Source: a bacterium (GTDB lineage Bacteria > UBP7 > UBA6624). Taken from it: 11,748 bases of DNA. Positions within the stretch are counted from its first letter, which is position 1; each line of letters opens with the position of its first letter. Location: the NCBI GenBank assembly GCA_014384545.1, contig JACNFQ010000009.1, forward strand, positions 1-11,748, written 5' to 3'. The translations under genes were made by a program, and so were the position numbers. The notes under the pieces are model-generated. The model ran no database searches, was not told where the DNA came from, and saw only the letters and a program-made list of their open reading frames with translations. Shown piece by piece: positions 1 through 11,748 of the stretch.

Positions 1-598
1 CTAACCACTTATCTCGAGACGATCGCAAGGGGCTAATCTCCTTCCTAACCCTATCCACAAGAATCTCTGCGCCGGCACCGGGCATGCTCTTATACCCTGC
101 CTCTTTCATGGCGCCAAAAACCTCTCTATAGGTCATCCCTTCCTTCTTTGCCACCCATTCAATCTCTGCCGAGGACAAACTGTGGATATCTACTGTGGGG
201 AATTGGGTAGAAACAGCTTTGAAGATGCGTAGATAATCCCTTAGTCTGTATTGGGGATTGACGCCTCCTTGCAAAAGAAGTTGGGTACCGCCCTCTGCAA
301 CCAACGCCTCTACACGTTCTAAGATCTGTTCAAGGGTGAGGTCGTATGCTTCTGGTGTTTTAGGAAGAGTATAGAAAGCACAGAACTTACAAAGTACATT
401 ACATACATTGGTGTAGTTTAGGTTTTCGTCCACGACAAAGGTGCCTAGGTTTTCAGGGTTGTGGCGTAGACGCGCTTCATTCGCCAATAACCCCAGAACA
501 GGAAGGGCGGCATCCGCAAACAGAGAGATACCCTCCTCCCAGGAGAGTCGATACCCTTCTTGGGCACCTCTTACAGCCTCTTCTAATAGAGAGCTCAT
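1..598 (-). CDS. mqnC: Cyclic dehypoxanthinyl futalosine synthase MqnC, 3' part cut off by window edge
   Basis: This is a radical SAM enzyme that cyclises dehypoxanthine futalosine to the cyclic form, in the cytoplasmic futalosine route to menaquinone. The first 199 residues are visible, in one open frame to the left edge. The SAM iron-sulfur motif is CNVLCKFC (Cys66, Cys70, Cys73), set in NYTNVC...CAFYT, which is typical of MqnC. LLLQGGVNP (about 108-115) and SMPGAGAEILVDRV (about 171-184) are further family blocks, and ISPLRSSRDKWL closes the visible part. The family is usually about 350-380 residues, so roughly half is missing. The ATG overlaps the TGA of mqnA in an ATGA tetranucleotide, which indicates translational coupling. 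It is the last visible gene of the ubiX-mqnE-mqnA-mqnC operon. MqnE is the closest relative but is present separately, so the assignment is secure. Confidence 0.93.
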   Translation of the reverse strand, partial: MSSLLEEAVRGAQEGYRLSWEEGISLFADAALPVLGLLANEARLRHNPENLGTFVVDENLNYTNVCNVLCKFCAFYTLPKTPEAYDLTLEQILERVEALVAEGGTQLLLQGGVNPQYRLRDYLRIFKAVSTQFPTVDIHSLSSAEIEWVAKKEGMTYREVFGAMKEAGYKSMPGAGAEILVDRVRKEISPLRSSRDKWL

Positions 599-1374
599 CC
601 CTTTCTCTTTGCTATCCGTCTAAGAATCGGAGAGGCCGCCTCTTTAAAGTGATGCCAGCCATCCTCTTCCTCTCCCGCCAACTTGACTTGATACGACTTG
701 AGATACTGCTTGACGATTCGGGGCCCCACTCCAGCAACACTCTCTATAGCTTTCGCTACATCACTGGGATTCGATTGTCCCCATTCCCAACTTGCCCAAA
801 GTGCCTCTTCTACTTCTCCAGCCCGTGCGTGAGCATCTGAACGATCTCTTAGACACCAAAATGCAAAGGGCATCGCGGTGCCTGTTTCAGTAGCCCATCG
901 CGTTCCCAAGTCCTCAAAGAATGGGAACCTGCCCTCTTCACGCCACCGCAACGCCTGGTCGCCAATCGCCAACACACTGGGTGCCTTTCTGGGGTCGCCT
1001 GGAGATAACAGATTAGGCTCTCTTCCAAATGCCTTTTCCCATAAGACACGAAGTAATAAGGGCGTCGTTACGCCTGAAGAGAGATTCCGAATGGGGTGCC
1101 GCCCCAAGGCACTCCAAGGGCGATCGCTAAAGACCCCCACACTCATTACAGGTCCTCTAGCAGAAATCCCCCACCCCATCAAGGGTTGGGCATAGGGCAT
1201 ATCCAAAAGTGCCCCCACCGAAAGCAACCCCGCATCAAAGAGACCCTTTTTCCAACCACGTGCAATCTCTCGGGGGGTACCCACCACAGTTTCAAAGGGG
1301 TGGTCAACCTCCCCTCTCTCTAACCCCAAAGTAAGGGGATAGCGGTTGGCAAATCCAATAAGGCTTGTTCGCAC
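595..1374 (-). CDS. mqnA: Chorismate dehydratase MqnA (menaquinone futalosine pathway)
   Basis: MqnA removes water from chorismate to give 3-enolpyruvylbenzoate, the entry step of the futalosine pathway. The 259-residue protein has the usual length and the periplasmic-binding-protein-like fold of the MqnA/MqnD family. The N-terminus has FANRYPLTLGL, followed by GISARGPVMSVGVFSDRP (about 69-86), the block LAIGDQALRW and then FEDLGTRWATETGTAMPFAFW. The last two are typical of MqnA rather than MqnD. The start is GTG at 1374. An in-frame TAG lies only four codons upstream (1384-1386), so no longer start is possible. An overlapping ATG at 1376 is in the wrong frame. A TAGAAT hexamer ends 6 nt before GTG and no Shine-Dalgarno sequence is seen, which suggests a leaderless transcript in addition to read-through from mqnE 39 nt upstream. 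The 3' end overlaps mqnC by 4 nt. Confidence 0.92.
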   Translation of the reverse strand: MRTSLIGFANRYPLTLGLERGEVDHPFETVVGTPREIARGWKKGLFDAGLLSVGALLDMPYAQPLMGWGISARGPVMSVGVFSDRPWSALGRHPIRNLSSGVTTPLLLRVLWEKAFGREPNLLSPGDPRKAPSVLAIGDQALRWREEGRFPFFEDLGTRWATETGTAMPFAFWCLRDRSDAHARAGEVEEALWASWEWGQSNPSDVAKAIESVAGVGPRIVKQYLKSYQVKLAGEEEDGWHHFKEAASPILRRIAKRKG

Positions 1375-1380
1375 ATCCCC

Positions 1381-1386
1381 ATTCTA
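1381..1386 (-). promoter_or_regulatory. Leaderless-type -10 element of mqnA (TAGAAT)
   Basis: On the minus strand, TCTAGAAT is followed by exactly 6 nt and then the GTG of mqnA. The same hexamer and spacing recur at ubiX and ubiD. No TTGACA-like box is seen at the expected distance. Instead that position is occupied by the short palindrome CCCCTTTAGGGG. Transcription from this site would start at or next to the start codon. The hexamer also contains the in-frame TAG that fixes the mqnA start. Confidence 0.6.
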
Positions 1387-1398
1387 GAACTGGTACAT

Positions 1399-1410
1399 CC
1401 CCTAAAGGGG
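1399..1410. repeat. Short palindrome CCCCTAAAGGGG between mqnE and mqnA
   Basis: Four G-C pairs flank a TAAA loop, in the 39-nt gap just after the mqnE TAA stop. It lies over the place where a -35 box for the mqnA -10 element would sit. It could be a small operator or a weak hairpin after mqnE. No T-tract follows on the minus strand, so it is unlikely to be an efficient terminator. Confidence 0.35.
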
Positions 1411-1413
1411 GTC

Positions 1414-2577
1414 TTATAGGGGGGAAAGGAGGGAAGCAGATGCTTGCTTCAGGACTTGACGAGAAGGGGCAGGATTGTAGATGCTGTCTACAGGTGTCGC
1501 CTCACGCCCTGCCTCGGCAAGGAGGCGCGCCAAGTGGCTAGCTGTAAATGCATTGTCGGAGTAACCCGCCGCCTCACGAGCGATCTCTTCATCTAAGCTG
1601 GCTCCGCCAATGTCATCCACGCCATAGGAGAGGAGTGTTTGGGTCATGCGGGGTCCTTGATAGGTCCAGAGGATGCGGATATGTGGAAAATTATCCAGAA
1701 AAATCCGTGAGAGGGCAAAGATGCGTGCGTCGTAAGTGCCTGTGGTGCCGTGAACTTTCCCTTCTAGCTTCGTGTTGGCGGGGAGGAATGCTAGGGGGAT
1801 AAGGGCAAGGAACCCCCCCGTTTCATCTTGGGCGTTTCGGAGCATATCCAGATGATGCACAATCTCGTGGGGCTCTTCTAGGGTTCCGTACAGCATCGTG
1901 GCGTTGCTATGTAGCCCCATTCGGTGGGCCGTTTGGTGAATCTCAATCCACTCTTCAGCACTCTCTTTGTTCTTAGCGATGAGGTTGCGGACTCGGGGGT
2001 GGAAGAGTTCCGCTCCTCCACCAGGAACGCTACCTAATCCCCACGTTTGGAATTTCTCTAATAGTGCATGGGGGGTAAGACGGTGGAGTTTGGCGATGTA
2101 GCGAATCTCAATGGCGGTAAACCCCTGAATAAAAATGTGGGGTGCCCGATCGCGAATCGTCGTAAGCAACCATTCGTAATACCCCAAGTCAAGCCTAGGG
2201 GTAATGCCCCCCACGATGTGAATCTCCCATGCGCCTTGGCGAACCGCTTCATCAATACGCTTTATAAGATCATCTCCTTCTACGACATAAGCTTCGGGGT
2301 GCAGGCGTTTGGGTTGAAAAGGGCGCTTCCAAGCACAGAGGTCGCAGTCTAAGATACATTCGTTGGTGTGGTTGATGTTGGCACTGTTACCGTAGAACGC
2401 CTTTCCCCCCCATCGTTTTCTTCGGGCATAATCTGCCATCATTCCCAAAGCAGAAAGGTCGCCCTCGCAGATTAGCCTGACCCCTTCGTTAAGGGTCAGT
2501 CGCTCACCCGCACGAACTTTCGTCCAAGCCCACCCATCTGGGTGGTTTTTCAGGAGCAAGTCAATCGTATTAGGCAT
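1414..2577 (-). CDS. mqnE: Aminodeoxyfutalosine synthase MqnE
   Basis: MqnE is a radical SAM enzyme that joins the adenosyl part of SAM to 3-enolpyruvylbenzoate, giving 6-amino-6-deoxyfutalosine. The cluster motif is CILDCDLC (Cys74, Cys78, Cys81) inside NINHTNEC...CAWKRPF. The blocks IHIVGGITP, ALLEKFQTWGLGSVPGGGAELF and HSNATMLYGTLEEPHEIVHHL are all characteristic of the MqnE/MqnC group. GGGAELF followed by NATMLYG, with a 387-residue length, fits MqnE. I place the start at ATG 2577 (MPNTIDLLL), which overlaps the ubiX stop in ATGCCTAA (8 nt). A longer reading to 2655 would add 26 residues lying entirely inside ubiX in another frame, with no family resemblance. AAAGG abuts the ATG too closely to be a normal ribosome-binding site, so coupling to ubiX termination is likely. 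Using MqnE implies that a deaminase/hydrolase step (MqnB or MTAN) is encoded elsewhere. Confidence 0.92.
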   Translation of the reverse strand: MPNTIDLLLKNHPDGWAWTKVRAGERLTLNEGVRLICEGDLSALGMMADYARRKRWGGKAFYGNSANINHTNECILDCDLCAWKRPFQPKRLHPEAYVVEGDDLIKRIDEAVRQGAWEIHIVGGITPRLDLGYYEWLLTTIRDRAPHIFIQGFTAIEIRYIAKLHRLTPHALLEKFQTWGLGSVPGGGAELFHPRVRNLIAKNKESAEEWIEIHQTAHRMGLHSNATMLYGTLEEPHEIVHHLDMLRNAQDETGGFLALIPLAFLPANTKLEGKVHGTTGTYDARIFALSRIFLDNFPHIRILWTYQGPRMTQTLLSYGVDDIGGASLDEEIAREAAGYSDNAFTASHLARLLAEAGREATPVDSIYNPAPSRQVLKQASASLLSPL

Positions 2578-3184
2578 CCTTTGAAATCTCGGTGGGCAAA
2601 CCCCAAGGAGGGAGCAGAGAGTGGACAATCCCAAGGGCATCCAAGACGCGTGCAACGACGCTATCTACCAAGTCCTCCACACTTTCCACCCCTTGGTAGA
2701 ACGTTGGGTTGGCATCCACAATTGTGGCGCCAAACCTAGAGAGCGTGAGGAGGTTTTCTAGGTGGATGGGCGATAGGGGGGTTTCTCGTGGGACTACCAC
2801 CAAAGGTCGACCCTCTTTAATCGTGACATCAGCAGCACGGTGAAGCAAGTTTGCCGTAACACCATGGGCGATATGCCCTAATGAACCCATAGAACAGGGA
2901 ATTATCACCATTCCTTGTGTCTTGTGGGTGCCACTGGCGATTCCTGCCGACATATCTGTAGAAGGTTGCCAAGTAAGATGAGGACCATACCTAGCCCTGA
3001 GGGTTTCTTGGGGGGATTTTCCCAGCTCAAGACCCAACTCGTGGTTTAGGAGATACCGCCCCCACTTACTAGCAACTACAGGAGAAGGAATCTTTGCTTT
3101 ACCCAAATGGCGAAGCAACCGATCGGCATATAGGGCACCAGAAGCACCCGTAATCCCAACGACTACAGGGAGGGAGTCTCTCAT
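2570..3184 (-). CDS. ubiX: Flavin prenyltransferase UbiX (MqnM role)
   Basis: UbiX attaches dimethylallyl phosphate to FMN to make prenylated FMN, the cofactor of UbiD-type decarboxylases. Here it probably serves the UbiD homologue at 9962-11413. The 204-residue protein has the nucleotide loop GITGASGALYA (10-20), VVASKWGRYLL (about 36-46), the PCSMGSLGHIAHG block (96-108) and LLHRAADVTIKEGRPLVVVP followed by RETPLSP (114-139), all signatures of the UbiX/Pad1 flavoproteins. The C-terminus carries about 15 extra residues after the usual end. It heads the operon ubiX-mqnE-mqnA-mqnC and overlaps mqnE by 8 nt. A TAGAAT hexamer ends 6 nt before the ATG and no Shine-Dalgarno sequence is present, so its mRNA is probably leaderless. 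The menaquinone role is inferred from the neighbours; the enzyme family itself is clear. Confidence 0.93.
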   Translation of the reverse strand: MRDSLPVVVGITGASGALYADRLLRHLGKAKIPSPVVASKWGRYLLNHELGLELGKSPQETLRARYGPHLTWQPSTDMSAGIASGTHKTQGMVIIPCSMGSLGHIAHGVTANLLHRAADVTIKEGRPLVVVPRETPLSPIHLENLLTLSRFGATIVDANPTFYQGVESVEDLVDSVVARVLDALGIVHSLLPPWGLPTEISKDA

Positions 3185-3190
3185 ATCAGG

Positions 3191-3196
3191 ATTCTA
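3191..3196 (-). promoter_or_regulatory. Leaderless-type -10 element of ubiX (TAGAAT)
   Basis: TCTAGAAT lies 6 nt upstream of the ubiX ATG on the minus strand, matching mqnA and ubiD base for base. A TTGAAA occurs 15 nt further upstream and could act as a somewhat close -35 box. It lies downstream of the terminator that ends the thioredoxin-like transcript, as expected for a new transcription unit. Confidence 0.62.
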
Positions 3197-3250
3197 GACT
3201 TAGCTCGCCTATTTCAATCCCTTTCCCCCTCCCCAACCCCGAACACCAAT

Positions 3251-3289
3251 AGAGAACAAAAGCGTGGAACCCCCCGACACATACCACGC
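3251..3289 (-). terminator. Intrinsic terminator after the thioredoxin-like gene
   Basis: Read on the minus strand, GCGTGG (3289-3284) pairs with CCACGC (3267-3262) and is followed at once by TTTTGTT (3261-3255). It sits 33 nt after the thioredoxin-like stop codon and before the ubiX promoter. The loop of 16 nt is longer than usual and contains one arm of a second stem (see the neighbouring entry). Confidence 0.55.
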
Positions 3290-3311
3290 CTTGCCATATG
3301 CGGGGGGTGGT
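3269..3311 (-). other. Alternative hairpins competing with the terminator
   Basis: Two further pairings overlap the terminator. ACCCCCCG (3308-3301) pairs perfectly with CGGGGGGT (3276-3269). ACCACCCC (3311-3304) pairs with GGCGTGGT (3290-3283) at 7 of 8 positions and would hide the 5' arm of the terminator stem. The second is laid out like an antiterminator hairpin. Whether it functions is unknown; GC-rich tracts are common in this window, so chance pairing is a real alternative. Confidence 0.3.
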
Positions 3312-3322
3312 GCCGCAGCGGG

Positions 3323-3847
3323 TTAAAGAGCAGCTTGAATAGCGGCTGCCATTTCTGCAGCAGACATGCCCGGGGCTAAACGCGCAACGACTTCCATCGT
3401 TTCAGGATCTACAACGATGGCGTATCCCGTACCCACTGCATTCTCCATATAAACCTGCCATAGGCCCATTTCTGCCACGGATTCTTCGGCACGGGCTGTC
3501 GTCTTTTCATTCGTGAGGTCCAGATCCAAGAAATGAACTCGTTCGGGGAAGTCTGCTGCCATCGCAATGCGTAAATCGGGTTCCATCACCTTACATAGGG
3601 TGCACCAATCTGCCTTGTAATAAAGTGTTACCAATGCTGGGGGCAACAGCTTGGCGGCACCTACTGTCTGGGATGTGGTCGTTTGAATAGGGGGTGGGGC
3701 TGGGGGTGGACTGGACGGATTTGAAGAGGACTTCCAGAGAAAGAACCCCCCGCCTAAGAAGAGTAGGAGTAGCCAAACAGGGCTCCTAAACGATGGGCAA
3801 AAGAGGCATGGTCGTGTGGTCGTTCTTGGGGAGTCTTCGTGGGTCAT
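3323..3847 (-). CDS. Membrane-anchored thioredoxin-like protein
   Basis: The 174-residue protein has a short N-terminal tail (1-22) and one hydrophobic segment (about 23-38, VWLLLLFLGGGFFLW). A Ser/Pro/Thr-rich linker (39-65) follows, then a thioredoxin-fold domain to the end. The active-site-like motif is YKADWCTLCKVMEP, with Cys82 and Cys85. The anchor and linker suggest the domain faces the periplasm, where it could reduce or shuffle disulfides. Two things are odd. The loop before the fourth strand reads AVGTGYAIVVD and lacks the cis-proline that thioredoxins normally have there. A second CxxC (Cys14-Leu-Phe-Cys17) precedes the membrane segment. It starts 44 nt after the PNGase-like gene ends, with its own TAGTGT element 6 nt before the ATG. 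A redox job for its cysteine-rich neighbours is inference. I cannot name an exact subfamily (DsbD C-terminal-like or TlpA-like are possible). Confidence 0.75.
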   Translation of the reverse strand: MTHEDSPRTTTRPCLFCPSFRSPVWLLLLFLGGGFFLWKSSSNPSSPPPAPPPIQTTTSQTVGAAKLLPPALVTLYYKADWCTLCKVMEPDLRIAMAADFPERVHFLDLDLTNEKTTARAEESVAEMGLWQVYMENAVGTGYAIVVDPETMEVVARLAPGMSAAEMAAAIQAAL

Positions 3848-3853
3848 GGTGCT

Positions 3854-3859
3854 ACACTA
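3854..3859 (-). promoter_or_regulatory. Leaderless-type -10 element of the thioredoxin-like gene (TAGTGT)
   Basis: TAGTGT ends exactly 6 nt before the ATG at 3847. It keeps the TA...T skeleton of a -10 box, and no Shine-Dalgarno sequence lies between it and the start. It is a weaker match than the TAGAAT of the menaquinone genes. A small inverted repeat GTGAT-N4-ATCAC (3882-3895) overlaps the upstream stop codon. Confidence 0.45.
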
Positions 3860-3891
3860 ACGCGAAGTTTCAGGGGGGTGTGTGATTCGTA

Positions 3892-5388
3892 TCACGATGG
3901 GTCAAGTTCGGTCCACAAGATTAGCCAACTGTGCAGATTGATGGATGCCTGGAAATCGTTCCCATCTACCAAAGGGACAGGTTGGTAAGGTTTACTCTTG
4001 TACAACGCATGGTACGAGAATCTGTTGAGTCCCCTGACTAGATAAGGGGTGGCATCAATACTGAAGGGGGGTAAATCCCAACCTGGGCACCAGTACGCTC
4101 TACCATAGGGCCATGTCCCAAACTGGTTGGGCACCACACCCTCGCTAACGAGATTGTGACACCCCAAATCTGTCCCTGCTTTGGGATCTTCCAACAGGGG
4201 GAGAGCATTCCCGTTTATCTCAAATTGGTGTTGATGATTGCAAAACTCGGCACAGTTCGCTTCGTCATCCCCAAAGCCATGTCCCGAAAGCAACCCTACA
4301 ACCTTGGCTCGGCGGAACCCATCAGGAACCGAAAAGATCTTCAGGGGTTGGCTGGGGTTGTAGCCCCCATGGAACGCGCCGCCGGTCCATAGGGGTATCG
4401 CTTCTGTAGGACGTGGTCCTTCCACCGTAGATAACCGAAACTTCAAGTTAAGAATATAGGCAGATTCGCCTGTGGGTACCTTGAAGCGGAAACGTCTTTC
4501 CCCCCCCTCTTTTAAGAAGGCAAGCATCGGTGTAATATCGCTTACCCATCTGCCGCGACGATGGTACGTGGATATCCAACGCGCAAGAGGTTGGTTGCAG
4601 GGTGCATCTTGTTCTAGACTACAGAGGAAGAGGTTTGTGGTGTGGTCCCATTCGGGGCAACCCGCATCTGAATTTCCTGGGCAAGCCATCTCTAGATCCA
4701 CTTCCAAATGGTTGTAGTTCATCAATATTTCGGTGGGGGGAAAGATCGCAGTGCCCTGAATCTCTGAACCCCATCCCCCACGAATCTCATCACCTTCAAA
4801 AAGAGGTACGACTTCAACGCCCTCTTCCCCATCAAGCCGAGCATCCAACGCATCCTCCCAAAGGAAATGCGCCCACTCCTTGGTAACGAGCCGCCACTCG
4901 GGACCCGATTCGGCAAAGGGAATCAAGAGCAATCCGGGTTCCCGTAATCTCCCCTGCCCATCAACGAGGAATCCCGCCTTGCCAGCACGCCACGCTAACC
5001 CTGCGGAAAGAATCTCACTTGCCGCTCCTTCCCATTGGGCGCCAGCGACCGCAGAAAAATGGATACGACCTTTCCATTCAGCCGCGATGGTGGGGGGCAT
5101 CTCATTGAGACTTTCCTCTATCCGTTCTTGAATCCCCTCCATCGCGGCTTCCCAATCTGGCCCATCCGCTACAAAGAGGAGCTGAACATGGGGAGGGGCA
5201 TTCTCTAGAAGGGGAAGGACGGGGGATTCCCAAAGTTGGGTAAGTCTCTCATCCTCTGTTTGGGTGCGTAGTACAGTTAGCCATTTAGCCTCTCCCTCTG
5301 CAAACCTAACCTCGCCTGATGTGGTTGGAAAGAAAAGTTCAGGCGCTTGTTGAAACCAAGATAGCAAGGCAAGAACGAAATAGACCAC
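3892..5388 (-). CDS. Secreted PNGase F-like protein (peptide-N-glycosidase F family, N- and C-terminal jelly-roll domains)
   Basis: PNGase F hydrolyses the bond between asparagine and N-linked GlcNAc. The 498-residue protein has a short signal-like start (MVYFVLALLSWFQQA), an extra N-terminal region (about 25-200), then the two PNGase F domains (about 205-345 and 350-495). Compared from memory with the flavobacterial enzyme, the catalytic Asp60 corresponds to Asp248 in CPEWDH and Glu206 to Glu381 in NCAEFCNHQH. All three disulfide pairs have counterparts: Cys236/Cys244, Cys379/Cys383 and Cys410/Cys434 (GTWPYGRAYWCPG). The position of Glu118 appears to be non-acidic (FKVPTG region) and Arg61 is His249, so substrate or rate may differ. 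The extra region contains LLFVADGPDW and FLVDGQGRL, reminiscent of a thioredoxin or peroxiredoxin fold, but has no cysteines. The start is GTG at 5388, 9 nt after the TAG of the upstream gene and in the same frame. No Shine-Dalgarno sequence is seen, so reinitiation is likely. Confidence 0.8.
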   Translation of the reverse strand: MVYFVLALLSWFQQAPELFFPTTSGEVRFAEGEAKWLTVLRTQTEDERLTQLWESPVLPLLENAPPHVQLLFVADGPDWEAAMEGIQERIEESLNEMPPTIAAEWKGRIHFSAVAGAQWEGAASEILSAGLAWRAGKAGFLVDGQGRLREPGLLLIPFAESGPEWRLVTKEWAHFLWEDALDARLDGEEGVEVVPLFEGDEIRGGWGSEIQGTAIFPPTEILMNYNHLEVDLEMACPGNSDAGCPEWDHTTNLFLCSLEQDAPCNQPLARWISTYHRRGRWVSDITPMLAFLKEGGERRFRFKVPTGESAYILNLKFRLSTVEGPRPTEAIPLWTGGAFHGGYNPSQPLKIFSVPDGFRRAKVVGLLSGHGFGDDEANCAEFCNHQHQFEINGNALPLLEDPKAGTDLGCHNLVSEGVVPNQFGTWPYGRAYWCPGWDLPPFSIDATPYLVRGLNRFSYHALYKSKPYQPVPLVDGNDFQASINLHSWLILWTELDPS

Positions 5389-5397
5389 TAGGGTTGC

Positions 5398-7467
5398 CTA
5401 GTCTACCAACCACTCTTTCTTGATAAGGATGCGCCACGAATCATCGGTTGATGAATTAGAGGGTTGGTCGGTCATATCAAAGACAACGAAAGTGGCATCG
5501 CCATCCCGGGGGCGAAGTTCCCACCGGGCATTCAACAACCAAAGATCAGTACTACTGCTCTGTTGAATGACGATTTTTGCCAATTGGAAGGGTGTGGGTG
5601 TCCACGAAATATCGAAGGACGCTGTCAAGGATTGGTCGGTAGACCCTTCACGTTCTACCCTGTCCCAGTTGATTGAGGGGCCAAAAGAAAAGGTGTCGGT
5701 GACCTTCCAATTGATCCAATTGTTGAGATTAATCCGGTCTGCGTCGTACCACTCACCCACAGAAACTCTCCCCATAAAGACCCACTTGTAGTTCTGGAAA
5801 TGACCAAAGAGACTAAGCCCCACTTCGGTCCATTGATGATTCCCCGCTGGAATGGTGATGTCTGGTAGAGAGAAAGGAGTAAATGGATTGTCTAGATTTG
5901 CCTCATTAAGGGTAATTGTGGGCGTCCAGCTCCAACCACTATCCATCTCCAAGCCCCAAGGCTTAAACTCCAAGGTGGATTCAATAAGATCTCCATCTCC
6001 GTCAACCAACTGGCTATATTCCGACTCATGAGAAAATCGGCGCACACCTTTCCATGGCGCATCCCAAACATATGAAGCTTCACCATCCATAACCCCTATT
6101 GTTCCCTGTCCACCATACCGATAAAACCCCACTTGAGGATCAAATCCACTATCGGCACTCAAGTAGCTAATAGAGAAAGAAAAGGGGTCGCTATGCCGCT
6201 TAGCTTTGACCGCCCAAGCCGAACCTGTTTCACCAAGGGCATCTGTGTTCTGAACCCAACCTGCGGTTTGCCAACGGGTGCCGTCGACGTCATTCCGTCT
6301 CCAATCCCAATCCGCACCTGTCGTTGAATGGTCTGTGCCACCAGAGCGAGCGATCTGAATAACCCCAGCAGTTAGGCTGGGCGAGAGATTGTGTCGCAGG
6401 CGCAACACCGAAAAAAGGGCATCGTTCGTTTCGTCCACAAACGCTGTAAGTAGTCCCGCTTCTGTTGAGCCCTCCCTCCCTGTAAGTTTTACACCTAACC
6501 GAAGAGGTGCCGGGTTTCCGCCACTATCTAGCCCCACACGGCGGCTGTGGAAAGCTTGTGCTACCCGCGGTTCGCCAAACTCGAATAAGCCAGCATTTTC
6601 TAGGAAAAAGTCACGCTTTTCAGGAAAGAAGAGGCTGAATCTAGTTAGGTTGCTTTGTTGCGAGTCGGCTTCGGCTTCTCCGAAATCGGCGTTGATGACA
6701 GCCGCCACACGCCAATCTTCTTTGGGGGAACCCAAAATGTCCAACCCAATCTGTCCTTGGGTGTGGGTTTCATTTTGTCCTGTGATCTTGCCAAGAACGA
6801 AAGGGAGAAAGGTCCATGCGCTCGTTGGGGATAAGCCCGCCATTCCTGAAAGTGACCCTGCTTGCGAAAGGTGACTAAGCTGGTTGGGGCGTTCCCATCC
6901 CGACCACCTAGCATCTTCTCGACCTCCATTCCACCAATACTTGATATTGAAACCCCAATCATCTCTATCGGGGTCTACCGAAAGTGTCCAGAAAGGGATG
7001 CGCACTTCGGCACTCCACCCCTCTGGGGTTAATCTGCCCGCGCCCTCCCAAAATCCATCCCAATCAATATCTGCTCGCCCTTCATCAGTAATGGTGCCGT
7101 CAACACGAGAGCCATTCGCATTGATTCCAAAATAATACCCATTTCGCCCATCGTTATGGGGGGATAGAACGATCTCTACCTTGTCGTCGTTCCATAGGCG
7201 TTGGTCTCGTTTTTGGTAACTGTGCAGGACTTCCGATGTCTCCATCTCAAAACCCAGATAAAACGCCTCATGGTCTTTCCAAAGGTAGGCGCGAACAGGT
7301 ATCGTGCCCGACTCCCCTTCGTTAGGCTGTTGTTGGGTCCAATGGGAGATAATCGCTGCATGCTTCCACACCTCTTCATCTAAGTTGCCATCCAAAACCA
7401 GATTGTCAAGGAGGGTGGGGAGTGGGAGGGTGGGAGCGACGAGGGCAAGAAGAAGGAAAGAGAGCAT
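5398..7467 (-). CDS. CBM9-like / DUF5916 outer-membrane beta-barrel protein
   Basis: The 689-residue protein begins with a signal peptide (MLSFLLLALVAPTLP). A carbohydrate-binding family 9-like domain follows (about 20-205), including LDGNLDEEVWKHA, FYLGFEMETSE, DDKVEIVLSPHNDGRNGYYF and GWSAEVRIPFWTL. The rest (about 215-689) is the DUF5916 region, a predicted outer-membrane barrel rich in alternating aromatic strands. Its hallmark lies at about 260-297 (ADFGEAEAD then LTRFSLFFPEKRDFFLENAG, GLFEFG). In this family the ligand is generally unknown; a role in binding or passing carbohydrate at the cell surface is inferred from the CBM9-like domain. It is followed at 9 nt by the PNGase-like gene in the same frame, so the two almost certainly share a transcript. 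A TAGGAT element ends 6 nt before the ATG. The divergent lipoprotein gene lies 93 bp away. Confidence 0.82.
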   Translation of the reverse strand: MLSFLLLALVAPTLPLPTLLDNLVLDGNLDEEVWKHAAIISHWTQQQPNEGESGTIPVRAYLWKDHEAFYLGFEMETSEVLHSYQKRDQRLWNDDKVEIVLSPHNDGRNGYYFGINANGSRVDGTITDEGRADIDWDGFWEGAGRLTPEGWSAEVRIPFWTLSVDPDRDDWGFNIKYWWNGGREDARWSGWERPNQLSHLSQAGSLSGMAGLSPTSAWTFLPFVLGKITGQNETHTQGQIGLDILGSPKEDWRVAAVINADFGEAEADSQQSNLTRFSLFFPEKRDFFLENAGLFEFGEPRVAQAFHSRRVGLDSGGNPAPLRLGVKLTGREGSTEAGLLTAFVDETNDALFSVLRLRHNLSPSLTAGVIQIARSGGTDHSTTGADWDWRRNDVDGTRWQTAGWVQNTDALGETGSAWAVKAKRHSDPFSFSISYLSADSGFDPQVGFYRYGGQGTIGVMDGEASYVWDAPWKGVRRFSHESEYSQLVDGDGDLIESTLEFKPWGLEMDSGWSWTPTITLNEANLDNPFTPFSLPDITIPAGNHQWTEVGLSLFGHFQNYKWVFMGRVSVGEWYDADRINLNNWINWKVTDTFSFGPSINWDRVEREGSTDQSLTASFDISWTPTPFQLAKIVIQQSSSTDLWLLNARWELRPRDGDATFVVFDMTDQPSNSSTDDSWRILIKKEWLVD

Positions 7468-7473
7468 TTGACT

Positions 7474-7479
7474 ATCCTA
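7474..7479 (-). promoter_or_regulatory. Leaderless-type -10 element of the DUF5916 gene (TAGGAT)
   Basis: TAGGAT ends exactly 6 nt before the ATG at 7467 on the minus strand. There is no Shine-Dalgarno sequence in the 6-nt gap and no convincing -35 box. It would drive the DUF5916/PNGase-like pair, back to back with the lipoprotein promoter in the same short divergent region. Confidence 0.5.
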
Positions 7480-7518
7480 TGGCGGTTTGAATGTTGCCTT
7501 CTTGGATTGGGTATGTGG

Positions 7519-7547
7519 TATCATTCTCCTATTCGAATCTGAGGAGG
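7519..7547 (+). promoter_or_regulatory. Promoter and Shine-Dalgarno sequence of the lipoprotein gene
   Basis: TATCAT (7519-7524) matches the -10 consensus at five of six positions. TTGCCT (7494-7499) could be a -35 box, with a long 19-nt spacer. A strong Shine-Dalgarno sequence GAGGAGG (7541-7547) follows, so this mRNA has a real leader, unlike the minus-strand genes. The Shine-Dalgarno lies 1 nt from the ATG at 7549 and 13 nt from the ATG at 7561; neither distance is ideal. Confidence 0.5.
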
Positions 7548-7560
7548 AATGGAACTAGGT

Positions 7561-8943
7561 ATGAAACTCTTGAGACAGCTCTTTATGGCGGTGTTATTTA
7601 TTGCACTAGCGACAGCGTGTGGTGGTGGAAGCAAAAACAATTCTTCTTCTAGTAACTATTTTGGGAGCCAATCTCCCGGCGATGCTTGGGATTGGACGAT
7701 TGGTTCTACCACATGGTCAGCCGAAAACACCACTCTATCTTTGGACTATTCAGGTACTTACACCACTCTGCCTAGTGGGTTCTTGAAGTTGATTGTGACG
7801 GCTTCAACTGATCTCGATTTGACCTCAGATATCAGTGCGGGTGATTACCCTGAGGCTTATGCGTTGGAATACCCCGATACGATGTTGCTTGTGGCTCCCC
7901 CCGAAAGTGACGAGGGTGTCATCGTGGCTACATCCCAAGATAGTTGTTTGGCGGATGGGTCATACGACTACAACTGGATCAACATTCCCCATAGTAGTTG
8001 GACGATTACAGATGAAGCGTATGGTACAGCTACGGCGTTGTTTACGAACAGCGGTGCTGATGTGGACTTTACGATCACTATGAATGATATAACGGGCGCC
8101 TCACTTGGACCCTCTTCTTCATCCCTTGGTCATGACTGTGCCAGTGGCTTGATTACTCATCCAGTAGACACAAGCATTTTTGGCATTGCCACTTCGGGCG
8201 TGATTATTGGCGACAACGGACCAGGTGAAGGTGGTGTTGCTGGTATGTTGGCTCCTTCTTCCGATATAGACTTGGCGGCTTTGGCTGCTGTTGAGTTCCG
8301 CGGGGTTCTATTTGATTCGGGTGGATTTGACGCTTGGTGTGATGGGTACGCTGGCATAACAGAACCAACAGATGAAACGTCTTGTACCACTGATGGTGGC
8401 ACTTGGTATATCGAGGGTGATGATTCCGAACCAGTGGGTACCGAAGCGTATGTGGCAGTGGGAACCGAGCCAACTTGTGCAGTGGGTGCTTCTTGCTTGA
8501 GGGGATATAGTTTTGCCGATGTAGGTTGCCACGGTTTTTCGGGCATGACCGAACCCACTGATTCAGTTTCTTGTATCGCTGATGGTGGCACATGGTTTTC
8601 ACAACATGGTGTTGAAACGGATGATAGAACACCTGATGTTTGTGGCTCGACCTTTGACCAAGCTTGTGGCGTGATGATTGAGTTTACGACACAAGCCACG
8701 CCGGGGGTAATCAATGCCAATCTTTACTCCCTTAACGACGAGGGGTCTGATGAACAGATGGTGTTCACTGCGAATGTTTTAGGTGGAAAATATGTCATTT
8801 TCGGATTCGGGGCTTATCTTGAAACCCACTGCGACGGCTATGGTGGTTTAACAGAACCAGCAGATGCAACGGCTTGTGCCTCTGATGGTGGCGTTTGGGT
8901 TGAGGATCACGAGTCCTATACTTTTGCGCTCGTAGAGAACTAA
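7561..8943 (+). CDS. Cysteine-rich lipoprotein with three CxGYxG...TEPxD...DGGxW repeats
   Basis: I do not recognise the family. The 460-residue protein has a lipoprotein signal (MKLLRQLF...LATAC, lipid Cys20) followed by GGGSKNNSSSS, a flexible Ser/Asn tether. The rest is acidic and rich in Thr, Ser and Gly, and looks beta-structured. Twelve cysteines follow the lipidated one; most sit in or beside three 23-residue repeats at about 260-282, 323-345 and 424-446. Each repeat starts C-x-G-[YF]-x-G-x-T-E-P-x-D and ends with a second Cys, then x-x-D-G-G-x-W. The even cysteine number suggests disulfides in the periplasm or at the cell surface. The start at 7561 is chosen because MKLLRQ is a normal lipoprotein start; an in-frame ATG at 7549 would add MELG. 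It is the only plus-strand protein gene, divergent from the DUF5916/PNGase-like pair and convergent with ubiA. Confidence 0.8.
   Translation: MKLLRQLFMAVLFIALATACGGGSKNNSSSSNYFGSQSPGDAWDWTIGSTTWSAENTTLSLDYSGTYTTLPSGFLKLIVTASTDLDLTSDISAGDYPEAYALEYPDTMLLVAPPESDEGVIVATSQDSCLADGSYDYNWINIPHSSWTITDEAYGTATALFTNSGADVDFTITMNDITGASLGPSSSSLGHDCASGLITHPVDTSIFGIATSGVIIGDNGPGEGGVAGMLAPSSDIDLAALAAVEFRGVLFDSGGFDAWCDGYAGITEPTDETSCTTDGGTWYIEGDDSEPVGTEAYVAVGTEPTCAVGASCLRGYSFADVGCHGFSGMTEPTDSVSCIADGGTWFSQHGVETDDRTPDVCGSTFDQACGVMIEFTTQATPGVINANLYSLNDEGSDEQMVFTANVLGGKYVIFGFGAYLETHCDGYGGLTEPADATACASDGGVWVEDHESYTFALVEN
8338..8406 (+). repeat. Cys-TEPTD-GGTW repeat 1 in the lipoprotein
   Basis: This copy encodes C-D-G-Y-A-G-I-T-E-P-T-D, then ETSC, then TTDGGTW. 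The unit spans 23 codons, in frame. Synonymous positions differ freely from the other two copies, so the protein sequence rather than the DNA is conserved. Confidence 0.8.
8527..8595 (+). repeat. Cys-TEPTD-GGTW repeat 2 in the lipoprotein
   Basis: This copy encodes C-H-G-F-S-G-M-T-E-P-T-D, then SVSC, then IADGGTW. It begins 63 codons after repeat 1. Confidence 0.8.
8830..8898 (+). repeat. Cys-TEPAD-GGVW repeat 3 in the lipoprotein
   Basis: This copy encodes C-D-G-Y-G-G-L-T-E-P-A-D, then ATAC, then ASDGGVW. It begins 101 codons after repeat 2 and lies close to the C-terminus. Confidence 0.8.
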
Positions 8944-8955
8944 GGGTTATGACTT

Positions 8956-8987
8956 GGAAGATCGCCCCATGGGCGGTCTTCCTCATT
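8956..8987 (+). terminator. Probable terminator of the lipoprotein gene
   Basis: A 12-bp stem with a 3-nt CAT loop starts 13 nt after the stop codon. GGAAGATCGCCC (8956-8967) pairs with GGGCGGTCTTCC (8971-8982), with one U-G wobble. Only a weak U-run (TCATT) follows, so termination may be partial. On the minus strand the same hairpin lies after ubiA, but no T-run follows there and the wobble becomes a C-A mismatch. Confidence 0.6.
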
Positions 8988-9016
8988 CCAGTGCGGCTCG
9001 TCCAAGTACTAGGGGC

Positions 9017-9904
9017 TTATTGTGCAGCAAGCCACGCTGCAACACCCAATACTATACTCAACCATCCATTCGCAGCAAAGAACGCCGCGTCAAGCCGTTC
9101 TAGGTTGCGCGGTCCCACAATACGGTGCTGATAGACCAGAAGGGCACCAGCGATTCCACACCCTAGCCACCAAGCGATTCCCCAGCCCACCACACCACCA
9201 AATCCCACAAACCCCAAAAGGGCGAATGCATGGAAAGTGCGTGCAATCACAAACGCTTTTGTTTCACCCCAAAAAACGGGAATGCTCTTTAGGTTGTTCT
9301 CCTTGTCAAAGGGAAGATCCTGAAGGCTGTAGAGGATATCAAACCCTGCTACCCAAAACATGATACCCACCACAATCCACCACAAGGCATCACCCCATCC
9401 ACCCGCTACAGCGATCCACCCGCCAGCTGGGGCACATGCCAATACAGCTCCTAACCAAAGGTGGCACCACCATCCCCACCGCTTGGTATAAGGGTAAAGG
9501 GCAAGGAGGGCAACCGCTAAGGGTGCTAGGCGCAATGCAAGGGGAAGATCTTCGTCTAAGGGGTTCAATAGCCGGGCGCAAAACCCCAGCAGAACCAACC
9601 CACCAAAGACCAATCCCCAAGCGTCTCGTTTTCGCACCTTCCCCGAGGGGAGTTCCCACTTGGAGGTGCGGGGATTCTTTGCGTCAAGGGGTAGGTCGAT
9701 AAGGCGATTGAGTGCCATCGCTGAAGTGCGTGCACCCACCATGGCGCCGAGGATCAGCAAAACGGTTTGGGGTGAAGGCCAACCCGCCCCAGCAGCGATA
9801 GCACCCACAAAGGCAAAGGGGAGGGCGAAGAGGGTGTGTTCAAACTTGACGAGACGAAAAAGATCTCGGGTAGAAGACATCATCTGTTTGTTATGGGGTG
9901 ACAT
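9017..9904 (-). CDS. ubiA: UbiA-family aromatic prenyltransferase (MqnP role)
   Basis: This integral membrane enzyme attaches the polyprenyl chain to the aromatic acid; in a futalosine-pathway organism the acceptor is expected to be 1,4-dihydroxy-6-naphthoate. The 295-residue protein has about eight or nine hydrophobic segments. It carries both Asp-rich motifs of the superfamily: NRLIDLPLDAKNPRT (Asp70, Asp74) and DILYSLQDLPFD (Asp189, Asp196, Asp200). The N-terminal LVKFEHTLFALPFAFVGA is typical. The start is uncertain. The frame stays open to a GTG at 9928; ATG 9904 lies 15 nt after AGGAGG (9925-9920); the ATG pair at 9883 and 9880 best matches the family N-terminus. No leaderless-type -10 element precedes any of them. 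It follows ubiD by about 57 nt and is probably co-transcribed with it. Convergent with the lipoprotein gene. Confidence 0.9.
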   Translation of the reverse strand: MSPHNKQMMSSTRDLFRLVKFEHTLFALPFAFVGAIAAGAGWPSPQTVLLILGAMVGARTSAMALNRLIDLPLDAKNPRTSKWELPSGKVRKRDAWGLVFGGLVLLGFCARLLNPLDEDLPLALRLAPLAVALLALYPYTKRWGWWCHLWLGAVLACAPAGGWIAVAGGWGDALWWIVVGIMFWVAGFDILYSLQDLPFDKENNLKSIPVFWGETKAFVIARTFHAFALLGFVGFGGVVGWGIAWWLGCGIAGALLVYQHRIVGPRNLERLDAAFFAANGWLSIVLGVAAWLAAQ

Positions 9905-9919
9905 TCGGACTGAACGAGA

Positions 9920-9926
9920 CCTCCTC
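9920..9926 (-). promoter_or_regulatory. GAGGAGG Shine-Dalgarno-like site upstream of ubiA
   Basis: GAGGAGG on the minus strand lies 15 nt before the ATG at 9904 and overlaps the GTG at 9928. The spacing is long for a normal Shine-Dalgarno sequence. It supports translation of ubiA from a polycistronic ubiD-ubiA message, not from a leaderless one. Confidence 0.4.
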
Positions 9927-9961
9927 ACCCATGGAAAGAAGAGAACGCCTTGAATGGGGGT

Positions 9962-11413
9962 TCAAGATATTAGACCGAGTTTTTTCAAGAGGGGTTGGAG
10001 GCGCTCGGTCACCTTAGGGTCCATATCCACCTGCCCTGGCCAAGGGCGAACCAAATTCTCCCCTTCCATCCCCCGCGTAGCATCAACGCCCACTTTCCCC
10101 CCAAATCCTTCTACGGGCGTGGAATGGTCTAGCACATCGATCGCACCGGTATCCACGATCAAATCCCGAGCCGCATCGGTGTTTGCCAAAGCATGGAAAA
10201 CCGCCTCGCTGGGGTTTTGTACGTCAATATCACCGTCCACCACCACCACCAGTTTGGTCATACTGAGCATCCCAATGCCCCAAATGGCATGAATGACCTT
10301 CCGTGCCTGCCCTGCATACTCTTTGTTGATGCTAACTAGGAGTGCATTATGAAAAACACCTTCAGGTGGAAAATGCCAATCCACAATCTCAGGCACCAAA
10401 AGCTGAATCAATGGGAGGAAGAACCTCTCTGTTGCATACCCCAAGAACCAATCTTCCTGCAAGGGTTTCCCCACCAAGATATGGGGGTAAATGGGGTTCT
10501 TTCGGTGGGTGATTGCAGTGAGATGTAGGACGGGGTAGGGTCCCGGATGGCTGTAGTAGCCGGTATGGTCGCCAAAGGGACCTTCAATCCGCGTCTCTTC
10601 AGGGTCAACCCACCCCTCAATGATGTATTCGGCACGGGCAGGTACTTCCAAATCTACGCTCTTCGCCTTGACCATTTCTAAGGGGGAATCTTGGAGGAAA
10701 CCTGCAAAAAGGTATTCGTCAATCCCAGGGGGTAAAGGCGCAGTCGCTGCATACATCGCGGCGGGTGGTCCACCCAAGGCAACAGCGACCTCCATCCGTT
10801 CACCTCTCTTCTTTGCACCTTCCTGATGCCGTTTCCCGTCCTTATGGAGCTGCCAGTGCATCCCCAAGGTCTTATCGTCAAACTTCTGGAGTCGGTAAGC
10901 TCCTACATTTCGTGTGCCCGTTTCTGGATCTTTCGTTATAACTTGAGTAAAGCAGACAAAGGGGGCGGCATCCCCAGGCCACATCGTGGGGATGGGGAGG
11001 ATATCTAGTGTGGCATTCTCTCCTTCTAAGACAACCTCTTGACAAGGAGCCTTACGAATCGTCTTGGGAAAGAACCTCTTCGCGTGGGCTATCTTCCCCA
11101 AAATACCCAGTGCCTCCCCCAGCCCAGCTCCGCTGGGGGGTTTGAGGTAGCCACGAAGACGGTCGGCAATCTCCTCCAAGTCCTCCACCCCCAATGCTGA
11201 CGCCATCCTCTCCTTGGAGCCAAAGAGATTCAACCCAACAGGCGTGGTGTGCCCCCTAGGGGATTCAAAAAGGAGGGCGGGTCCACCTTGGCGGGTCGTC
11301 TGTTGCCCAATCTCGGTCATCTCTAGATGGATATCTACTTCATCCTCAATCCGTAATAGATCGCCCTTGTTCTCCATCAAGGCTAAAAAGTCGCGCAGGT
11401 CTTTTGGTGCCAT
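9962..11413 (-). CDS. ubiD: UbiD-family prenylated-FMN decarboxylase (MqnL role)
   Basis: UbiD-family enzymes decarboxylate aromatic acids using prenylated FMN made by UbiX; here the likely substrate is the prenylated dihydroxynaphthoate of menaquinone synthesis. The 483-residue length is typical. The motif ETRIEGPFGDHTGYYS carries Glu272 and Glu277, spaced like the catalytic glutamates of Fdc1/UbiD. NVGAYRLQ (Asn169, Arg174), MHWQLHK (His186, His190) and DEYLFAGF (Glu233) match cofactor and metal ligands by analogy. The N-terminal MAPKDLRDFLALMENKGDLLRI is the usual family start, supporting ATG 11413. A TAGAAT hexamer ends 6 nt before it, with no Shine-Dalgarno sequence, so the mRNA is probably leaderless. 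It precedes ubiA in the same direction. Other UbiD clades act on different acids; the menaquinone role is inferred from ubiA, ubiX and mqnACE nearby. Confidence 0.93.
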   Translation of the reverse strand: MAPKDLRDFLALMENKGDLLRIEDEVDIHLEMTEIGQQTTRQGGPALLFESPRGHTTPVGLNLFGSKERMASALGVEDLEEIADRLRGYLKPPSGAGLGEALGILGKIAHAKRFFPKTIRKAPCQEVVLEGENATLDILPIPTMWPGDAAPFVCFTQVITKDPETGTRNVGAYRLQKFDDKTLGMHWQLHKDGKRHQEGAKKRGERMEVAVALGGPPAAMYAATAPLPPGIDEYLFAGFLQDSPLEMVKAKSVDLEVPARAEYIIEGWVDPEETRIEGPFGDHTGYYSHPGPYPVLHLTAITHRKNPIYPHILVGKPLQEDWFLGYATERFFLPLIQLLVPEIVDWHFPPEGVFHNALLVSINKEYAGQARKVIHAIWGIGMLSMTKLVVVVDGDIDVQNPSEAVFHALANTDAARDLIVDTGAIDVLDHSTPVEGFGGKVGVDATRGMEGENLVRPWPGQVDMDPKVTERLQPLLKKLGLIS

Positions 11414-11419
11414 CGGGTG

Positions 11420-11425
11420 ATTCTA
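11420..11425 (-). promoter_or_regulatory. Leaderless-type -10 element of ubiD (TAGAAT)
   Basis: TCTAGAAT is followed by 6 nt and the ubiD ATG on the minus strand, identical in motif and spacing to ubiX and mqnA. The expected -35 region is purine-rich (AAAAGAGAGAGAAG) with no TTGACA-like box. Confidence 0.62.
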
Positions 11426-11689: not shown

Positions 11690-11719
11690 ATGAGACGCCA
11701 CTTCGGTGTGTGGGATAAT
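11690..11719 (+). promoter_or_regulatory. Promoter of the tRNA-Leu gene
   Basis: GATAAT (11714-11719) matches the -10 consensus at five of six positions, and ATGAGA (11690-11695) matches the -35 consensus at four of six, with an 18-nt spacer. Transcription would start near 11726, about 5 nt before the mature tRNA 5' end. Confidence 0.5.
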
Positions 11720-11742
11720 ACCCCCCCACAGCCGAAGTGGCG
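11696..11742. repeat. Inverted repeat joining the promoter spacer to the tRNA 5' end
   Basis: CGCCACTTCGG (11696-11706) is the perfect reverse complement of CCGAAGTGGCG (11732-11742), which is nucleotides 2-12 of the tRNA. An inner pairing TGTGGG (11709-11714) with CCCACA (11725-11730) extends it. The left arm lies upstream of the expected transcription start, so the full hairpin would form only in read-through RNA or extruded DNA. No T-run follows on either side, so it is not a standard terminator. Confidence 0.7.
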
Positions 11743-11748
11743 GAACAG
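11731..11748 (+). tRNA. 5' end of a probable tRNA-Leu gene, cut off by the window edge
   Basis: The last 18 nt, GCCGAAGTGGCGGAACAG, read as the acceptor 5' strand (GCCGAAG), T8, then the start of the D arm with A14. This is the typical start of bacterial tRNA-Leu (usually continued by GTAGACGC). A promoter lies at the correct distance upstream. The anticodon is outside the window, so the isoacceptor is unknown. Confidence 0.72.

Follow-up and report, generated by a model that had tools for sequence, protein, structure and literature searches.

TAGRAT-type −10 elements set 6 or 7 nucleotides before start codons predict widespread leaderless initiation in a poorly sampled bacterial family

Leaderless genes have been predicted in 21.6% of bacterial species; in Actinobacteria ∼20% of genes, and in Deinococcus-Thermus 40%, are of this kind, with a −10 element adjacent to the start codon. 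The −10 consensus of HrdB-type promoters in Streptomyces is TAGRRT, usually listed together with a −35 element, TTGACR. In Deinococcota, TANNNT occurs about 6-7 bp before the open reading frame in roughly a third of genes, alongside a ribosome-binding site (RBS) motif, and experiments showed it to act as a −10 region, mqnE being among the genes tested (Zhong et al. 2025, PMC12340547; Zheng et al. 2011, PMC3160421). Mycobacterium tuberculosis combines a TANNNT −10 element with the lack of a conserved −35 element, many leaderless mRNAs and a pyrimidine before +1 (Cortes et al. 2013, PMC3898074). Across bacterial groups, TANNNT is found in those of high GC content and TATAAT in those of mid GC content (Zheng et al. 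2011, PMC3160421). Finally, symmetric −10 elements of E. coli support divergent transcription from one short element (Warman et al., PMC12825309).

The window analyzed here, a stretch of 11,748 nucleotides, is contig C91 of a MAG (G000) of 1.39 Mb in 107 contigs that is 79% complete. Three genomes of its GTDB phylum, all belonging to one family, were compared (G000, G001 and G002). The window genes and their predicted promoters are as follows.

595-1374, minus strand: mqnA (VitK2_biosynth, PF02621; Pfam E 1.9e-32), GTG start
1375-1386, minus strand: mqnA promoter, predicted leaderless; TAGAAT at 1386-1381, discriminator GGGGAT at 1380-1375 (6 nt), GTG at 1374
1414-2577: mqnE, downstream of ubiX with an 8-nt overlap, without a box of its own
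2570-3184, minus strand: ubiX-type flavin prenyltransferase
3185-3196, minus strand: ubiX promoter, predicted leaderless; TAGAAT at 3196-3191, then CCTGAT and ATG
3323-3847, minus strand: thioredoxin-like protein (PF00085), membrane segment at the N terminus
3848-3859, minus strand: promoter of the thioredoxin-like gene, predicted leaderless; TAGTGT at 3859-3854, then AGCACC and ATG
3892-5388: PNGase-F-like gene abutting the DUF5916 gene in the same transcription unit, without a box
5398-7467, minus strand: DUF5916/CBM9 outer-membrane-type protein
7468-7479, minus strand: promoter of the DUF5916 gene, predicted leaderless; TAGGAT at 7479-7474, then AGTCAA and ATG
7540-8943, plus strand: lipoprotein-like gene, included as a contrast; Shine-Dalgarno (SD)-led, with GAGGAGG at its start and no TANNNT at spacing 6 or 7
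9962-11413, minus strand: ubiD-type menaquinone decarboxylase (TIGR03701, 585.6 bits, cut-off 495.9)
11414-11425, minus strand: ubiD promoter, predicted leaderless; TAGAAT at 11425-11420, then CACCCG and ATG

In line with a previous sequence-only reading, five minus-strand genes share a −10-like hexamer that is separated from the start codon by exactly 6 nt. The region upstream of ubiX is an exact match to TCTAGAATN6ATG (C91:3182-3198), while TAGTGT of the thioredoxin-like gene is the weakest of the five boxes. The architecture, described in that reading as uniform, is so at the starts of transcription units; mqnE, the PNGase-F-like gene, ubiA/mqnP (which has GAGGAGG near its start) and the plus-strand lipoprotein-like gene lack the box. 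The reported absence of an SD sequence applies to four of the genes; in the DUF5916 gene, TAGGAT holds AGGA at an SD-like distance.

To place these boxes in a genomic context, 1.14 Mb (82%) of G000, taken as stretches, was analyzed. A dicodon model that ignores upstream sequence called 907 genes; their start codons are thus ab initio predictions, made on a MAG of 79% completeness. TANNNT was then counted at every spacing upstream of the 303 divergent or well-separated genes. It is present at spacing 6 in 44/303 and at spacing 7 in 29/303, against a background of 4.15 per position, which corresponds to an 8.8-fold enrichment at these two spacings only (73/303 genes; P 8e-43). Spacing is therefore 6 or 7 across the genome rather than constantly 6 as in the window. 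The same pipeline gave 0/85 for E. coli K-12 and a 7.3-fold enrichment for the D. radiodurans MP1 plasmid. Exact patterns agree: TAGAATN6ATG occurs 31 times against 3 for the reversed-pattern control, and TCTAGAATN6ATG 10 times against 0.

An unsupervised EM analysis with three components (−10, SD and none) and a flat initial spacing converged, whether seeded with TAGAAT or TATAAT, on the same motif, TAGRAT (T 93%, A 96%, G 77%, A/G 58/38%, A 86%, T 98%), placed 6 nt (43%) or 7 nt (27%) before the start codon. The −10 component took up about 24% of all genes, its share being 56% among divergent genes and 11% among those internal to operons. The SD-like component received about 70%, an upper estimate since weak purine-rich matches were absorbed. 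Both the spike and the EM result support the earlier proposal that leaderless initiation is widespread, with the refinement that it would apply to about one gene in four, most of the others appearing SD-led. The preference for TAG as first half of the box is also borne out: position 3 is G in 50/73 TANNNT matches at spacing 6/7 versus 48/137 elsewhere.

These observations would be explained if the window motifs are −10 elements (TAGRAT) of promoters read by the housekeeping sigma factor. A hexamer ending 6-7 bp from the start codon would lie at the normal −10 to +1 distance, so that transcription would begin on the A or G of the start codon and yield an mRNA without a 5' leader. Translation would then start at the 5'-terminal start codon without SD pairing. 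This mode would serve about a quarter of genes, mainly those first in their transcription units, with SD-led initiation for most others. Taken as a whole, we hold this explanation, in which a TAGRAT promoter places +1 at the start codon in about a quarter of genes, with high confidence.

Compared with the systems above, G000 resembles Deinococcota in that TANNNT at 6-7 before the open reading frame coexists with RBS/SD-type genes, although the preferred hexamer is TACACT in Deinococcota and TAGAAT/TAGGAT in G000. The TAG first half and the purine at position 4 recall Streptomyces HrdB, yet no −35 element is detectable in G000. With M. tuberculosis, G000 shares a −10-only TANNNT element, many leaderless genes as predicted from sequence, and a pyrimidine before the predicted +1; the middle of the hexamer is free in M. 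tuberculosis, whereas G3 and A5 are favored in G000. At 52% GC, G000 has an information-rich TAGRAT, unlike the TATAAT of mid-GC groups (Zheng et al. 2011, PMC3160421). Leaderless −10-only architecture is already known; what G000 adds is a poorly sampled lineage and a box sharper at G3 and A5 than is usual at mid GC. With this family of three genomes, a further lineage would be added to the bacteria in which a large part of the genome is expressed from leaderless mRNAs, and TAGRAT at 6/7 nt provides a sharp motif for correcting start-codon annotation in it.

The −10-adjacent habit is common to the family, as judged from sequence conservation, with a slightly looser spacing in G002. EM on the AT-rich G002 (34% GC), with either TAGAAT or TATAAT seeds, found no −10 motif and drifted into A-rich background, and this genome was assessed by an orthologue test instead. 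TANNNT at 6-8 nt was present in 25/53 G002 orthologues of leaderless genes versus 24/268 others (P 5e-10), and in the G002 ubiD orthologue TAGAAT lies 9 nt upstream of the ATG. A screen of the phylum with a two-box pattern gave no matches, the pattern having been badly chosen.

It had been suggested that the three menaquinone promoters, being the most alike, may form a regulon; the extended TCTAGAAT would then be its operator or regulon site. TC does precede TAGAAT in the promoters of all three window menaquinone genes, and it precedes 17/47 leaderless TAGAAT boxes versus 3/45 TAGGAT boxes. However, TCTAGAAT, accounting for those 17 of 47 TAGAAT leaderless promoters in G000, is not restricted to menaquinone genes: it is also found upstream of functionally unrelated genes encoding YqeY, methylmalonyl-CoA mutase, TatD, a Band-7 protein, a molybdopterin oxidoreductase, an amidase, an SIS protein, NAD(P)H-hydrate dehydratase, XdhC and IspH. 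Moreover, TC precedes 46/188 TAGAAT genome-wide in any case, and in G002 the ubiD box is preceded by TT. The regulon proposal is accordingly abandoned, and an operator function of TCTAGAAT for menaquinone genes seems very unlikely.

Alternatively, TAGRAT could be a translation signal on leadered mRNAs, either an SD variant or an AT-rich ribosome-binding element, as TAGGAT has AGGA at an SD-like distance and 6-7 nt is a plausible SD spacing too. This is contradicted by untranslated genes that carry the identical box. A perfect TAGRAT lies within 80 nt upstream of 20/28 tRNA/tmRNA units, mostly 9-18 nt from the gene, compared with 3 units for TAGRAT on the opposite strand, 0 for TATAAT and a shuffle expectation of 3.7%. 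In addition, the box is depleted in operon-internal genes, TAGAAT is equally frequent without an SD core, and T1, A2 and T6 are near-invariant. Nor does the AGGA within TAGGAT cause the spike, since T..T flanks on NAGGAN are specific to spacing 6/7 (35/79 versus 8/188 elsewhere; P 1e-14) and the spike persists without TAGGAT (31 and 24 versus about 4). Some TAGGAT genes could nonetheless be SD-led rather than leaderless. No 16S gene from which to read the anti-SD was found in G000, G001 or G002. Finally, a pyrimidine occupies −1 in 44/61 (72%) spacing-6 leaderless ATG genes versus 109/297 (37%) SD genes (P 4e-7), which fits transcription beginning on the start codon itself, with a pyrimidine at −1 and a purine at +1. 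Use at tRNA/tmRNA genes, the bias toward transcription-unit starts and the −1 pyrimidine, three independent lines, identify TAGRAT as a transcription signal, and we consider a role in translation highly improbable. That five short, degenerate matches were simply picked by eye can be dismissed, for although TANNNT is a common 3-letter motif, the window probability is ∼1e-7 (for 5/9 window genes with a box, ∼7e-8 at the intergenic background rate and 2e-10 at the internal-codon rate) and the genome-wide P is ∼1e-42 with positive and negative controls.

Several tRNA-Leu genes (at the start of L107 and with upstream regions in L070, L099 and L115) share GATAAT some 12 nt upstream in place of TAGRAT, which may be a −10 variant of its own for the tRNA-Leu family. 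The window itself ends, at 11701-11748, in an apparent 5' end of a tRNA-Leu gene (GCCGAAGTGGCGGAA...).

With TAGRAT read as a −10 element, the remainder of the promoter was searched for a −35 element through per-column information, enriched k-mers and matches to TTGACA, and nothing was detected in G000: between −32 and −1, counted from the hexamer, no column exceeds 0.06 bit, and TTGACA matches at the canonical distance are no better than at other upstream positions. T (0.24) and G (0.22) at −3/−2 of the hexamer are both at background level, giving no sign of an extended −10 (TGN) element. G000 promoters thus conform to neither the canonical sigma-70 nor the extended −10 type. Consistently, TTGACA-N16-18-TANNAT is rare in the three family genomes (9 versus 1 for the reversed pattern in G000, 12 versus 8 in G002, 6 versus 8 in G001), while other genomes reach up to 143 versus 4. 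A further genome, of 3.8 Mb (G018), has both a strong excess of TAGAAT-N6-ATG (28 versus 2 in the control), so that it is probably leaderless too, and some TTGACA-17-TANNAT promoters (18 versus 2).

Among upstream 6-mers ATTCTA is the most enriched; it is TAGAAT read on the opposite strand and stems from divergent promoters. Both starts were assigned to the −10 model in 20/69 divergent pairs, 13 of which have an intergenic gap of 16-50 bp, and in three pairs the boxes overlap, for example in the palindrome ATTCTAGAAT.

Short divergent leaderless pairs: L124:11850-11865, L067:6348-6372, L112:9610-9635, L061:5509-5538, L133:8593-8626, and others

As TCTAGA is the core of ATTCTAGAAT, such palindromes probably account for part of the TC preceding TAGAAT. 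The palindromic pairs share a symmetric −10 with the bidirectional promoters of E. coli, but in G000 both transcripts are predicted to be leaderless coding mRNAs, with starts 16-50 bp apart in 13 pairs.

The primary sigma factor of the family is itself unusual.

L185:847-2292, minus strand: RpoD orthologue of G000 (contig C55), region 3 interrupted midway by ∼88 extra residues
L184 and L183:1039-2478, plus strand: further loci of the housekeeping sigma factor with the region-3 insert

The ∼88-residue insert splits region 3, both halves of which align around it; it occurs in each of the three family genomes and in 0/113 others, and no relative was found in Pfam or PDB. A second insertion, of 6 residues in the turn of the −35-reading helix-turn-helix of region 4.2, is confined to G000, and the linker between regions 2.4 and 3.0 reads QGNIVRRPVHM in the family versus QARTIRIPVHM in aligned SigA chains. 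No paper describing both a sigma insertion in region 3 and leaderless genes was found in the literature. A causal tie between the insert and −35-free promoters is speculative, and the insert is not necessary for −10-only promoters, since M. tuberculosis, too, has no −35 consensus. A broader scenario, which we regard as rather unlikely, would have the housekeeping polymerase drifting to −10-only promoters, the sigma inserts replacing −35 recognition, fixing TAGRAT and permitting divergent leaderless firing from 16-40 bp, even from one palindrome (ATTCTAGAAT). The divergent leaderless pairs at 16-50 bp and the sigma insert may be more novel than the leaderless architecture itself, and −35-free promoters combined with an unusual primary sigma factor offer a natural case for testing the role of the −35 contact.

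Lastly, the intergenic region at 3274-3316 of the window contains a repeat around CCACGCCTTGCCA, not seen in the G002 stretches examined, which also occurs in L053, L058, L075 and L078, dispersed over several contigs, and which is followed a few bases further on by GGGG(C/G)(G/T)GG.
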